From positions 186,001 to 250,000 of the forward strand of contig NZ_AYSE01000005.1 in the NCBI RefSeq assembly GCF_000504165.1: a stretch of DNA of 64,000 nt, read 5' to 3'. This document shows positions 6,605-61,841 of this stretch, in pieces. Numbering within the stretch: the stretch's first letter is position 1; each line of letters begins with the position of its first letter. Source of the stretch: Bacillus sp. FJAT-14578. GTDB taxonomy: Bacteria; Bacillota; Bacilli; Bacillales; Bacillaceae_H. Below the pieces are notes generated by a model, which saw only the letters and a list, made by a program, of their open reading frames with translations, had not been told where the DNA came from and did no database searches. The position numbers and the translations under genes are program-made.

Positions 6605-6867
6605 GTTCAAAAAGTCCGGGAAAAATGACCGTCGAATTTACTTGTACAGGACGTACTGATCCGACGTTCGCCACAGGACGTGGCGGTTCTTAGTCGGGCC
6701 GCGTCAGCTTGCTTTTCCGCTACTCACGTATTAAGAGCATACGCTCCGTTCCTTGGAAAAGAAAATCGCTTTTCCGGCGTGCGATGAAGAATCGTGAGAA
6801 GCTTTCCTTTATGCTCAAAGCGGCGCTTCCTTGAACTTCTCGGTCCTTTTTGTCCTCCTTTTTGAAC
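6605..6867. repeat. Intergenic dispersed repeat, family A, copy 1 (long form)
   Basis: Bounded by inverted GTTCAAAAAG ends. It shares long blocks with copies at 9584-9713 and 18762-18962, including GTCCGGGAAAAATGACCGTC, GCTTTTCCGCTACTCACGTA and CCTTGAACTTCTCGGTCC. It also carries a nested hairpin module (CCGACGTT, GCCACAGGACGTGGC, TTAGTCGG). It encodes no protein, so it looks like a non-autonomous, MITE-like or BCR-like element. Confidence 0.8.
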
Positions 6868-18761: not shown

Positions 18762-18962
18762 GTTCAAAAAGTCCGGGAAAAATGACCGTCGAAATTACTT
18801 GCACAGGAAGTGCTGATCCGACGTTCGCCACAGGACGAGGCGGTTCTTAGTCGGGCTTCATAAGCTTGCTTTTCCGCTACTCACGTATAAATCACATACG
18901 CTCCGTTGCTCAAAGCTGCGCTTCCTTGAACTTCTCGGTCCTTTTTGTCCTCCTTTTTGAAC
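18762..18962. repeat. Intergenic dispersed repeat, family A, copy 3
   Basis: It has GTTCAAAAAG / CTTTTTGAAC ends and includes the central nested hairpin module also seen in copy 1 and in family B copy 2. It lies in the divergent region between secA2 and the subtilase gene. Confidence 0.8.
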
Positions 18963-22876: not shown

Positions 22877-23057
22877 TTGTCTAGCTCCAGCGCCTAGCTC
22901 AGCACGGGAAAAGATGATTGCCCTCATAAGGCAAAAAGCGCCTTCTGGGTCAATCCCTATTTCCTTGGGGCCACAGGATGTGGGTCATGCCGACGTTGCC
23001 ACAGGACGTGGCGACCTTAGTCGGCCTTCTTTAATCAAGGCGCCTGCGCTTTTCTTT
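22877..23057. repeat. Intergenic dispersed repeat, family B, copy 2
   Basis: It matches the 15.3-kb copy at its ends and left half. Its right half carries the GCCACAGGACGTGGC hairpin with TTAGTCGG that is otherwise part of family A, so the families have exchanged a module. Confidence 0.75.
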
Positions 23058-39779: not shown

Positions 39780-39920
39780 TTACTGATTCTCTTCCTGATG
39801 ATACGCAATCAACACAATCTTCTCGTCCGTCCCTTGATTCAACTGTTGTTCCAAGTCACGAATTTTTTTAAGCTCGTCGGTATGTAAGTTCGCAACAGGG
39901 TAATGGTCGTTCTGTTTCAT
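39780..39920 (-). CDS. Small conserved-looking protein, paralogue A (46 aa)
   Basis: An ATG preceded by a purine-rich AAGGGG site opens a 46-codon frame. The product shares the pattern YPVANL...L.K...LE..LNQ.T..KIVLIAY with the equally long product at 44198-44338. Identity between two independent short frames, with differences that preserve the reading frame, is strong evidence that both are real genes. There is no signal peptide; a helix followed by a KIVLIAY beta strand is likely. I do not recognise a named family. It is convergent with the large SLH gene, and its upstream region shares a GAATAAAACA...CAAAACTTAGT block with the paralogue, which may be a promoter of sporulation sigma type. 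Function unknown. Confidence 0.8.
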   Translation of the reverse strand: MKQNDHYPVANLHTDELKKIRDLEQQLNQGTDEKIVLIAYHQEENQ

Positions 39921-39998: not shown

Positions 39999-40029
39999 TT
40001 TTCGACAAATATTGGGTGATGATAGACAC
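39999..40029 (+). repeat. Degenerate 0A-box element
   Basis: TTTCGACAAATATTGGGTGA followed by ..TAGACAC keeps the TTCGACA box and GGGTGA but not the full mini-palindrome. It lies upstream of the 46-aa gene, on the opposite strand. Confidence 0.45.
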
Positions 40030-40130
40030 TATTTATGAGCAAGCAAAAACACAACGGCACTGATGAAAGCGGCCATTGCTCCGCATAAAATCTTTTCTTT
40101 TTGGTCTTTCGTAAGCCATGTTTGATTCAT
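40029..40130 (-). CDS. 33-aa single-pass membrane peptide downstream of a c-di-GMP riboswitch
   Basis: A frame of 33 codons starts with ATG behind GGAGGTAAC. The peptide has a polar basic N terminus (MNQTWLTKDQKEK) and one hydrophobic segment of about 16 residues (AAFISAVVFLLA), ending HK. This suggests a membrane micropeptide with its N terminus inside. It begins about 50 bases after a c-di-GMP-I aptamer on the same strand. An ACCTCC in the linker could pair with its GGAGGT. The next gene on this strand, 109 bases downstream, is the 46-aa paralogue A, which could be co-transcribed. I do not recognise the family and infer no function beyond likely c-di-GMP control. Confidence 0.65.
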   Translation of the reverse strand: MNQTWLTKDQKEKILCGAMAAFISAVVFLLAHK

Positions 40131-40182
40131 TCTATGTTACCTCCAACGTGTACTAGCCAATAAGACGAAAGGAGGTGAAATG

Positions 40183-40275
40183 TATTCGGCAGCTGGCGAG
40201 CGTAGTCCTTATGAGACGTTAGCCCCTATAGCTTTGCGTCACCATTTTTCAATGGCTTTGCCCTTTCGTACTCTT
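40183..40275 (-). promoter_or_regulatory. Cyclic di-GMP-I (GEMM) riboswitch aptamer
   Basis: Read on the minus strand, the conserved GEMM blocks appear in order: AGGGCAAA.CC, a short GAAA-type hairpin (CCATTGAAAAATGG), ACGCAAAGC, GGGGCTAA, and near the 3' end CGCCAGCTGCCGAA. These match the c-di-GMP-I consensus arrangement as I know it. No terminator stem with T run follows; instead a CACCTCC anti-Shine-Dalgarno stretch lies just downstream, so translational control of the 33-aa gene is more likely. A promoter should lie to the right (40280-40340). Confidence 0.85.
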
Positions 40276-44197: not shown

Positions 44198-44338
44198 CTA
44201 CTCGCTCTTTTCATGCTGGTAAGCGATTAATACAATCTTGTCACCTGTTTCTTGATTCAATGCGTTTTCAAGTTCCTGAACTTTTTCAAGCTGATTGTCC
44301 TGTAAATTTGCCACCGGGTAATTAGTGTATATGTCCAT
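44198..44338 (-). CDS. Small conserved-looking protein, paralogue B (46 aa)
   Basis: The same length as paralogue A and the same core (NYPVANL.D.QLEK..ELE.ALNQETGDKIVLIAYQ). An AAAGGAG site precedes its ATG. Like A it is convergent with a large SLH gene and separated from it by a terminator, so each SLH paralogue carries one 46-aa gene at its 3' side. The upstream block GAATAAAACA...CAAAACTTAGT and a 0A-box element lie before it, as for A. It is cytoplasmic by sequence. Function is unknown; association with sporulation or S-layer state is only an inference from the promoter-like block and context. Confidence 0.8.
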   Translation of the reverse strand: MDIYTNYPVANLQDNQLEKVQELENALNQETGDKIVLIAYQHEKSE

Positions 44339-59954: not shown

Positions 59955-61841
59955 GTGCGCCCAGCATGGGCGCAGTCTATAGGGTGCAAGTCCCGAACCG
60001 TGAAGGCAGTAGTAGTGGTTAGCTTAACGCAAGGGTGTCCGGGGTGACTCGGAATCTGAAGGAAGCGGGCGGCAAACCTCCGGTCCGAGGAACACGAACT
60101 TCATATAAGGCTAGGTGTCATTGGATGAGTCTGCTAAACAAGATAAAGTCCTTACTGCCGAAGGTGACATCGAGTAAATGAAGCGGATAGATGGAGGGAA
60201 AGACTGCGCTCTTACCTGGGGAGGTCTGACTGGAAAGCCAAGTACACTTGGTAACCCATTCAGTGATGAATGGCTGAACAGTCAGAAGTCAGCAGAGGTC
60301 ATAGTACTTTATCTGCTCGAGAAGATAAAGGAAGGACCGAACAATTAGGAAGAACAAAGACTAGGCGTTCAACTTCTGTGCGGAAACAGACAATCCGAAA
60401 GGACTTACTTGAAGGAGGAAGTGGTGAATCCCATGGGGGACTTCAAGAGGGTGGAGCAGAAGTTGGCATAAGTAGAACCCTTTGTTCACGTAGAAAGGAA
60501 CTATCAAATGTTAATGGAACGAATGTTGTCACGGGAAAATCTTTTAACGGCATTAAAACGTGTCGAACGAAATAAGGGAAGCCATGGCATAGATGGAATG
60601 TCCGTAAAAGACCTACGAAGACATCTCTATGAACATTGGAACTTCCTTCGGCAGTCGCTGAAAGAGGGAACTTATCAGCCTTCTCCTGTCCGTCGAATCG
60701 AAATCCCGAAACCGAACGGAGGAGTAAGGTTATTAGGTATTCCTACTGTGACAGACCGTTTCATCCAACAAGCCATTGCCCAAGTGCTAACTCCTATTTT
60801 TGATCCGACGTTTTCCGAAAACAGTTATGGATTTCGTCCACAACGACGAGGTCATGATGCAGTAAGGAAGGCAAAGGAATACATAAAATCGGGGCAAAGA
60901 TGGGTAGTCGATATAGACTTAGAAAAATTCTTCGACAAAGTGAATCATGACAAGTTGATGGGGATTGTAGCGAAGAAGATAGAAGACAAAGTCCTTCTAA
61001 AACTGATTCGCCGATATCTTCAGTCGGGTGTGATGATAAATGGAGTGGTCATCGAAACGGAAGAAGGTACCCCGCAAGGTGGTCCATTAAGCCCTTTACT
61101 GTCCAACATTCTGTTAAATGAATTAGATCAGGAGCTAGAAAAGAGAGGGCATCAATTCGTTCGATATGCGGATGACTGCAATATTTACGTGAAAACGAAA
61201 AAGGCCGGCATTCGTGTGATGAACTCGATCACTGGATTTATTGAGGAAAAGTTGAAGTTAAGGGTAAACAAGGAGAAATCCGCAGTAGACCGACCATGGA
61301 AACGGAAGTTCCTTGGGTTTAGTTTTACACTCCATAAAGAACCAAAGGTTCGAATAGCTAAAGAAAGTGTGAAACGATTGAAAGCGAAAGTCAGACTCAT
61401 GACTTCACGTTCTAAGCCATACTCTATGGAACAAAGAATTATGAAACTAAACCAATACCTAACAGGTTGGTGTGGTTATTTCGCTTTAGCTGATACACCT
61501 AGTAAATTCGAAGAGTTTGATCGATGGATAAGACGAAGATTGCGTATGTGTATATGGAAAGAATGGAAGAAACCAAAAACAAGAATGAGGAAACTGATTG
61601 GTTTGGGGATTCCGAAGAAACAAGCATACGAATGGGGCAATTTCCGCAAGAAATATTGGAGAATTGCCCATAGTCCTATCCTAGACAGAACCCTCGGCCG
61701 CTCCTATTGGAGCAGCCGAGGGCTGAAAAGTCTATATCAACGATATGAATCTCTACGTCAAACTTAATTGAACCGCCGTATACCGAACGGTACGTACGGT
61801 GGTGTGAGAGGTCGGGGGCTAGCCGCCCCCTCCTACTCGAT
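59955..61841 (+). mobile_element. Bacterial group II intron, probably class C, with its reverse transcriptase
   Basis: The 5' end GTGCGCCCAGCATGGGC fits the group II GUGYG start. The 3' end contains a domain V-type hairpin (ACCGCCGTATACCGAACGGTACGTACGGTGGT, here split as ACCGCCGTATACCG and CGTACGGTGGT) and a domain VI stem (GGGGGCTAGCCGCCCCC) ending CTCCTACTCGAT. One 419-aa RT is encoded in domain IV. Insertion immediately after a terminator hairpin and an ORF without endonuclease domain are the marks of class C. The exact 3' boundary is uncertain by a base or two. Confidence 0.93.
60508..61767 (+). CDS. ltrA: Group II intron reverse transcriptase/maturase
   Basis: A 419-aa intron-encoded protein. 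RT blocks are seen from about residue 50: RRIEIPKPNGGVR, ENSYGFRPQR, VVDIDLEKFFD, GTPQGGPLSPLLSN and the catalytic YADD (in FVRYADD). The maturase (X) domain follows (about 300-375; YLTGWCGYF, RRRLRMCIWKEWK). No HNH endonuclease domain is present, as in class C introns, which use single-stranded or structured DNA targets. It starts at ATG 60508 after GAAAGGAAC. The frame is complete, so intron splicing and mobility may be intact. A 101-codon frame overlapping its start lies in intron structural RNA and is not counted as a gene. Confidence 0.95.
   Translation: MLMERMLSRENLLTALKRVERNKGSHGIDGMSVKDLRRHLYEHWNFLRQSLKEGTYQPSPVRRIEIPKPNGGVRLLGIPTVTDRFIQQAIAQVLTPIFDPTFSENSYGFRPQRRGHDAVRKAKEYIKSGQRWVVDIDLEKFFDKVNHDKLMGIVAKKIEDKVLLKLIRRYLQSGVMINGVVIETEEGTPQGGPLSPLLSNILLNELDQELEKRGHQFVRYADDCNIYVKTKKAGIRVMNSITGFIEEKLKLRVNKEKSAVDRPWKRKFLGFSFTLHKEPKVRIAKESVKRLKAKVRLMTSRSKPYSMEQRIMKLNQYLTGWCGYFALADTPSKFEEFDRWIRRRLRMCIWKEWKKPKTRMRKLIGLGIPKKQAYEWGNFRKKYWRIAHSPILDRTLGRSYWSSRGLKSLYQRYESLRQT

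Follow-up and report, generated by a model that had tools for sequence, protein, structure and literature searches.

A c-di-GMP-I riboswitch upstream of a widespread family of predicted one-helix membrane micropeptides in Bacillus sp. FJAT-14578 and related genera

In the c-di-GMP-I class of riboswitches the helix P1 is stabilised by the ligand, and for one member, Cd1, no P1 helix was detected (both according to the available excerpts of PMC9262584). Within Bacillus, the excerpts of PMC7423583 describe the Bc2/cbpA riboswitch of the Bacillus cereus group, through which c-di-GMP exerts ON control over a cell-surface output, and those of PMC4342826 describe a c-di-GMP riboswitch before sinI in Bacillus methanolicus, together with two more before genes of unknown function, BMMGA3_15625 and BMMGA3_15380. 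PMC9943018, as far as its excerpt goes, concerns antisense-acting riboswitches, which are a different matter. Neither the matches listed from the open-access literature nor the available excerpts show a c-di-GMP riboswitch with a membrane micropeptide. Here we describe a locus in the window, by which we mean the whole stretch of 64,000 nucleotides that was analysed (contig NZ_AYSE01000005.1 of Bacillus sp. FJAT-14578). Here an established riboswitch class has a micropeptide target that is both new and widespread, the leader between them is of a distinctive build, and the finding is larger than first described.

The covariance search (cmscan, Rfam) matched RF01051 on the minus strand at 40272-40185, scoring 77.5 bits where the gathering score is 35 (E-value 1.7e-13). 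The match spans the full model (1-87/87), RF01051 was the best clan member at this site when the best of the overlapping clan models was kept, and two non-standard pairs are marked in the alignment. The initial annotation had recognised this aptamer from its GEMM sequence blocks, and the score rules out a chance motif match as their origin. From this riboswitch identity the window leader is predicted to bind c-di-GMP. The genome holds five RF01051 copies and 12 GGDEF matches (11 above the cut-off, one of those 11 being a fragment with a stop), and c-di-GMP is therefore very likely made in the cell. The aptamer sits in a gene leader, the Shine-Dalgarno (SD) sequence starting 41 bases and the ATG 55 bases past its end. 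Both the SD sequence GGAGG (40144-40140, minus strand, 9 bases 5' of the ATG) and the 33-aa frame behind it (40130-40029, minus strand; MNQTWLTKDQKEKILCGAMAAFISAVVFLLAHK) are present as first described. The linker CACCTCC, which had been thought able to pair with the SD, indeed contains the complement of GGAGGU, ACCUCC at 40176-40171 (minus strand), here called the anti-SD. For the start of the transcript, TATAGT at 40299-40294 (minus strand), 27 bases 5' of the aptamer, is a possible if weak -10 element, agreeing with TATAAT at 5/6 positions; no good -35 was seen near it, and the consensus promoter scan listed nothing there. The other Rfam matches in the window are three Bacillaceae-1 RNAs (22970-23036, 18800-18866 and 6643-6709, minus strand) and parts of a group II intron (60038-60337, plus strand).

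A search with the single peptide over 61 genomes matched only the peptide itself, and the first link to a relative was made by position behind a like aptamer, not by peptide search. In G009, a genome of a second genus in the same family, an aptamer with 95% identity to the window's (86 bases) is followed at the same position by a 33-aa peptide with 33% identity to the window peptide, a comparison across genera which indicates good conservation of the RNA. When the two peptides were combined into a profile, matches appeared in 24 of 397 genomes of the order at E <= 0.1, both query genomes included. RF01051 lies upstream in 7/7 of the best seven non-self matches (L089-L095), and in 0/13 of those scanned among the 15 weaker ones. 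A nine-peptide profile (A3), applied to the 397 order genomes and 398 genomes of the class, extends the family to a longer clade of 42-46 aa; the window peptide matches this profile, which includes it, at E 1.8e-15.

From the profile matches we selected 51 members by E-value, short open frame and resemblance to the WLTP pattern described below, and a c-di-GMP-I or c-di-GMP-I-GGC aptamer is present upstream in 36 of them; two of the 15 without one (L138 and L205) are doubtful members. The weaker rows of the nine-peptide profile, some with short frames (e.g. G014, G137 and G193), were fetched in part, L158-L165 lay outside the aptamer scan, and among weak matches in the class genomes (E about 0.001-0.012) 17 loci besides L134, L139 and L147 were aptamer-less and treated as chance. 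The aptamer-bearing members span nine families of the order (f1, f5, f11, f13, f18, f20, f21, f32 and f47). The order of riboswitch and peptide seen in the window thus recurs in relatives, the frame being conserved where the aptamer is kept, and a c-di-GMP aptamer upstream of the WLTP peptide is typical, not obligatory. Counting against conservation of this link, the aptamer of the sister genome G001 nearest to that of the window (L062:682-934, 81% identical) precedes a different 39-aa membrane peptide, MLLFIQGVVAGSFSMLVIMSLMYASKKGDEQSERLYNNS, which is unrelated to the WLTP family and weakly like DUF3789, below the Pfam cut-off. The aptamer of the member L197 (G035:C1:1199719-1199809) is matched best by RF03167, c-di-GMP-I-GGC, so that its ligand preference may differ. 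Peptide paralogs without an aptamer occur in f21 (L133, L193, L194, L196, L199, L203 and L204), where other copies have one; they carry ..WLTPEEIAWRKNRNK.. or ..WMTPEEIAWKKKRNK.. and form a second, differently controlled copy. Upstream of the aptamer-less member L119 (G206) is a small ORF whose motif, by eye, resembles that of a Spo0E-type phosphatase.

At the level of wider databases, a strict aptamer-plus-WLTP pattern returned 7 loci, with Anoxybacillus calidus and Pseudalkalibacillus species among the holders, and a protein-level search returned 74 sequences at E <= 0.01, from holders that include Anaerobacillus, Mesobacillus, Neobacillus, Metabacillus, Sutcliffiella, Rossellomorea, Aeribacillus and Bacillus fengqiuensis. 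The B. fengqiuensis protein equals the window peptide at 30/33 residues, counted by eye. Any source name shown for these homologs reads hypothetical or uncharacterized protein, and their entries carry no precomputed Pfam domain. The peptide had first been described as unannotated, which does not hold everywhere, homologs standing in NCBI as 'hypothetical protein' (Bacillus fengqiuensis, Bacillus iocasae). Pfam, run on three members, and NCBIfam, run on 22, gave no family above cut-off, and a PDB sequence search with the family profile found nothing; the WLTP family is without an entry in these three collections as searched.

Members of the WLTP family are 33-46 aa long; they begin with a motif resembling W-L-T-P and also have a charged stretch and a single predicted hydrophobic helix. 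W-L-T or W-F-T followed by P is found in 20 of the 22 aligned peptides, the exceptions being the window (W-L-T-K) and L135 (F-L-T-P). The window peptide fits the family pattern with its 33 aa, W5 L6 T7 K8 and a hydropathy of 2.64 over residues 14-30, in agreement with the membrane peptide of one hydrophobic helix that was proposed at the outset; a single transmembrane helix is predicted. Each of the ten peptides measured has one hydrophobic stretch, near the C-terminus except in the unrelated L062 peptide, and positive charge lies on the N-terminal side. A structure model of the relative L121 shows a single helix over residues 8-45 (pLDDT 88.5, pTM 0.48) and adds little. Purifying selection was measured in three clades of relatives, apart from the window's own lineage, where pN/pS is 0.10 (9 sequences), 0.17 (3) and 0.05 (2). 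In the first of these clades the shifted frames give 1.20 and 2.96, and the differences by codon position number 172, 52 and 555. The only DNA pair for the window lineage, that with G009, is strongly diverged, with 15.7 synonymous differences at 21.7 sites. The peptide frame is a real gene under purifying selection in relatives, and its reading as a spurious ORF is ruled out by the homologs together with the low pN/pS found there.

When the leaders are read side by side, the same order is repeated: a 5' strand, the aptamer, the anti-SD, a 3' strand, a short spacer and the SD. The 5' strand before the aptamer pairs with the 3' strand behind the anti-SD in a covarying helix, here called P0, which had been missed initially, as had the widespread peptide family. 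In the window, the 5' strand at 40284-40262 pairs with the 3' strand at 40172-40154 (both on the minus strand), the latter taking in the last two bases of the anti-SD. The duplex has an energy of -20.1 kcal/mol (shuffle p 0.017) and appears in the minimum-energy fold of the leader. Tested against shuffled linkers, the P0 duplex is significantly stronger (p <= 0.05) in 17 of 18 loci, L121 being the one that fails. When partners were permuted among 13 loci, 0 of 20000 permutations equalled the P0 pairing of the true partners, and a locus's own pairing ranked first in six loci, second in five, fifth in one and seventh in one. Compensatory changes can be followed by eye, with GAACG/CGUUC in L089, GUACG/CGUAC in L090 and AUACG/CGUAU in L093, and with AAAGCC/GGCUUU in L092 against CAUAAG/CUUAUG in L089. 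As controls we used c-di-GMP-I aptamers of the same bacterial family: from 42 loci we removed 3 that were themselves peptide or P0 loci, and from the remaining 39 another 16 in which a simple pattern missed the aptamer end. P0 has a mean z of -3.05 over 15 loci, of which 14 belong to the family and one is L062, versus +0.20 in the 23 controls. P0 as a general feature of c-di-GMP-I leaders is ruled out, as none of the 23 control aptamers shows it. The L062 locus in G001, with its different 39-aa peptide, also carries P0 and an anti-SD.

Within the f47 clade, no such anti-SD was seen, and P0 is found in 1 of 5 tested loci of this clade and L131. Here, CAUCAAW at the aptamer end can pair with WUUGAUG in the start-codon region (by eye in L118, L123, L128, L135, L137 and L139), and the f47 leader appears to be another design before the same peptide family. 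The leader designs before WLTP peptides comprise the anti-SD with P0, the start-codon hairpin and a short leader. That the same micropeptide is found in nine families while the leader design varies suggests that selection holds the link between messenger and peptide.

Folded alone, the window linker hides the SD (accessibility 0.00, against 0.13 in shuffles, p 0.035), a predicted fold that makes the translational switching first proposed for this leader plausible. The SD is hidden in this way at p <= 0.05 in 11 of 17 loci, the window counted, and the effect is non-significant in L093, L127, L124, L130, L135 and L118. In the full window leader P0 forms and SD accessibility is 0.84; elsewhere full-leader values run from 0.00 (L038) up to 0.99 (L118). 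Energies with either helix forced, obtained for nine loci, range from 7.9 kcal/mol favouring P0 to 3.9 favouring the anti-SD:SD pairing. In the window the P0 state is predicted to be 7.6 kcal/mol more stable than the anti-SD:SD state with ligand absent, while in L038 the anti-SD:SD state wins by 3.9 kcal/mol and even the full leader keeps its SD hidden. Since P0 is favoured without ligand in the window, the switch there could be permanently ON, barring an influence of kinetics or of the true 5' end. The predicted P0 and anti-SD:SD helices of the window cross and share two bases, and for this reason we take them as mutually exclusive alternatives.

We consider it probable that c-di-GMP, by causing leader strands to exchange partners, turns on translation of the peptide, the aptamer standing before a conserved micropeptide of one predicted helix. 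Without c-di-GMP, an anti-SD:SD hairpin would hide the start site. Upon binding, c-di-GMP would close helix P1, and P0 would then form beside P1, capturing the strand just 3' of the anti-SD plus the last bases of the anti-SD itself; the anti-SD, held by P0, could no longer pair with the SD, and ribosomes could start. Because the ligand stabilises P1 and P1 adjoins P0, we infer the ON direction, in which c-di-GMP favours P0 and frees the SD. By analogy, Cd1, without a detectable P1, would count against an ON model based on this helix. The peptide would reside in the membrane with its charged N-terminal part predicted to be cytoplasmic, and through it c-di-GMP signalling would have an output at the cell envelope that is carried in the membrane.

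The same pairings could operate with the opposite sign, if P0 and the anti-SD:SD helix formed together as a pseudoknot, so that c-di-GMP would hide the SD and turn the peptide OFF. In the leaders read by eye, the anti-SD lies 0-4 bases 5' of the P0 3' strand, as a stacked pseudoknot needs, and Vc2, the best known GEMM-I translational switch, is an OFF switch in the available excerpts of PMC9262584. However, the final two anti-SD bases of the window are taken up by P0, in L094 and L095 the P0 3' strand and the SD strand are separated by about two bases, which is too few to span a nine-pair helix if our view of the geometry is right, and the nested fold of the window leaves the SD free once P0 forms; we regard co-formation as unlikely. 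The strength of window P0 without ligand would also suit an aptamer that is a decayed or non-responsive relic before a constitutively expressed peptide, and excerpts of PMC11218506 report for B. thuringiensis that Bc1 binds c-di-GMP and that its genes gave no response. A relic is at odds with the covariance score, two non-standard pairs being marked, and with aptamer DNA far better conserved between genera than the peptide behind it, and we think it distinctly unlikely. The peptide itself might resemble type I toxins, as a small peptide made under c-di-GMP control that poisons or depolarises the membrane, given its one hydrophobic stretch and small size, the small dedicated transcript unit predicted from hairpins in most loci and the tight translational control predicted for it. 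Yet pN/pS is low in relatives, aptamer-less paralogs exist within the same families, and the positive charge is N-terminal in WLTP peptides, unlike that of Bacillus type I toxins, which is C-terminal. The Rfam scans of the scanned loci listed no antisense RNA antitoxin. A toxin is, in our judgement, very improbable.

The initial annotation had also considered that the riboswitch might control the 46-aa gene after the peptide (39920-39780, minus strand), and a stronger form of this view would have the riboswitch serve an operon whose real target is the 46-aa gene, with the 33-aa frame in a minor role or that of a leader ORF. The 90 bases behind the window peptide hold no terminator-like signal, and the next inverted repeat with a T run is seen behind the 46-aa frame (39740-39692, minus strand, by eye; the terminator scan, confined to loops of 3-8, did not list it). 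Against this, a terminator-like hairpin lies within 90 bases 3' of the peptide in 24 of 29 loci (the window, L092, L094, L121 and L127 lack it), which indicates that the unit is usually monocistronic, and the peptide recurs behind the aptamer in the nine families, whereas the 46-aa homolog occurs in just 4 of 16 family genomes, its own included. The 46-aa ORF has 6 unnamed homologs at 80-89% identity. Its ortholog in G001 (87% identity) lies elsewhere, with about 100 bases upstream of it that resemble those in the window, and the 3.1 kb around it hold no Rfam match, and so no riboswitch, from which the 46-aa gene is probably independent and may be read through from the riboswitch transcript. 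Control of this gene is thereby weakened as a claim; we reject it as the main target on the G001 ortholog and the hairpins behind the peptide, and consider the operon the least probable of the readings weighed here.

Returning to the reading of the peptide as the target of an ON switch, we surveyed its neighbours in 21 regions, comprising the window and 20 fetched regions (19 of the family and one with the 39-aa peptide). The S-layer setting first described holds for the window, whose flanking genes carry SLH domains, and is not general, as a gene of the SLH/CWB2 surface group lies within about 8.5 kb in 8 of the 21 regions, the window and L192 among them. In the window, a paralog of the 46-aa gene lies at 44338-44198 (minus strand; 55% identity over 40 residues), and the two copies (44198-44338 and 39780-39920) are on the strand opposite to the SLH genes and flank the second of these. 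Genes for Wzz, a capsule-type tyrosine kinase, a CpsB/CapC phosphatase and a nucleotidyl transferase come after the peptide, all on its strand, in L175, in L186 and also in L188, where the aptamer is missing; Pfam was run on L175, the other regions being joined by BLAST, and the putative kinase was named from a ParA/AAA_31 match next to Wzz. In L179, L180 and L182 (Pfam on L180 and L182) a GGDEF/HD-GYP gene lies immediately beside the peptide or one gene further on. A putative Wzz/BY-kinase capsule module stands directly behind the peptide in some genera and a GGDEF/HD-GYP enzyme adjacent to it in others. The LytR-CpsA-Psr group is found in five regions and the VanZ group in six, and the neighbours in three f11 regions look housekeeping by eye. 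A single conserved neighbourhood is rejected, since the neighbours vary between regions. As raw counts, these are only a hint of an envelope or c-di-GMP context. Tentatively, and with more doubt than conviction, we propose for Bacillales an output route of c-di-GMP that needs no protein receptor: the messenger would be sensed by an RNA, and the one-helix membrane micropeptide made from it would target machinery of the envelope, the Wzz/BY-kinase module or a GGDEF/HD-GYP enzyme; if this is true, action on an adjacent GGDEF/HD-GYP enzyme would close a feedback loop in some genera.

Very small proteins stand behind other c-di-GMP-I aptamers as well. In the genome studied here, L005 (G000:C34:257163-257250) is an aptamer directly before a SinI-like protein (PF08671), followed by a gene that looks SinR-like by eye, and SinI-like proteins of 40-44 aa are found behind aptamers in L005 and L039 (PF08671) and in L036, L041, L043 and L065 (by eye). 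At L002, L060, L056, L057 and L044, the aptamer is followed by a terminator-like stretch (by eye) and then by a peptide of 53-60 aa with one hydrophobic stretch and the motif ..YSLVxxIISVSSLMAFITLP..; in L002, the one tested, it has no Pfam match. Several very small proteins (WLTP, SinI and the 53-60 aa peptide) are therefore placed behind c-di-GMP-I aptamers in one family. WLTP peptides are small enough to escape gene finders with length cut-offs, and they offer a small entry point, with one RNA, one peptide of 33-46 residues and neighbours hinting at partners. To our knowledge, Gram-positive bacteria have few established direct outputs of c-di-GMP, and in the present case c-di-GMP, a surface-life signal, likely switches on an undescribed, predicted membrane micropeptide.

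Compared with the RF01051 (GEMM-I) class as a whole, the window has the same full-model aptamer in a gene leader, and differs in that its target is a micropeptide family with no entry in the collections searched and in the extra helix P0, absent from the 23 controls. With sinI of B. methanolicus, as far as the excerpts of that report go, it shares a c-di-GMP riboswitch before a very small Bacillus protein; SinI, however, is an anti-repressor of SinR, whereas the window peptide is a predicted membrane helix with no visible similarity to it. Bc2/cbpA, in the excerpts available, is likewise turned ON by c-di-GMP in Bacillus and has a surface output, the ON direction of the window leader being a proposal, but Bc2 acts on transcription and its target is a collagen-binding cell-wall protein. 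Translational control and the use of P1 as the switching helix would be common to Vc2 and the window leader (excerpts of PMC9262584), and the two differ in sign, Vc2 being an OFF switch while for the window leader ON control by way of P0 is predicted.
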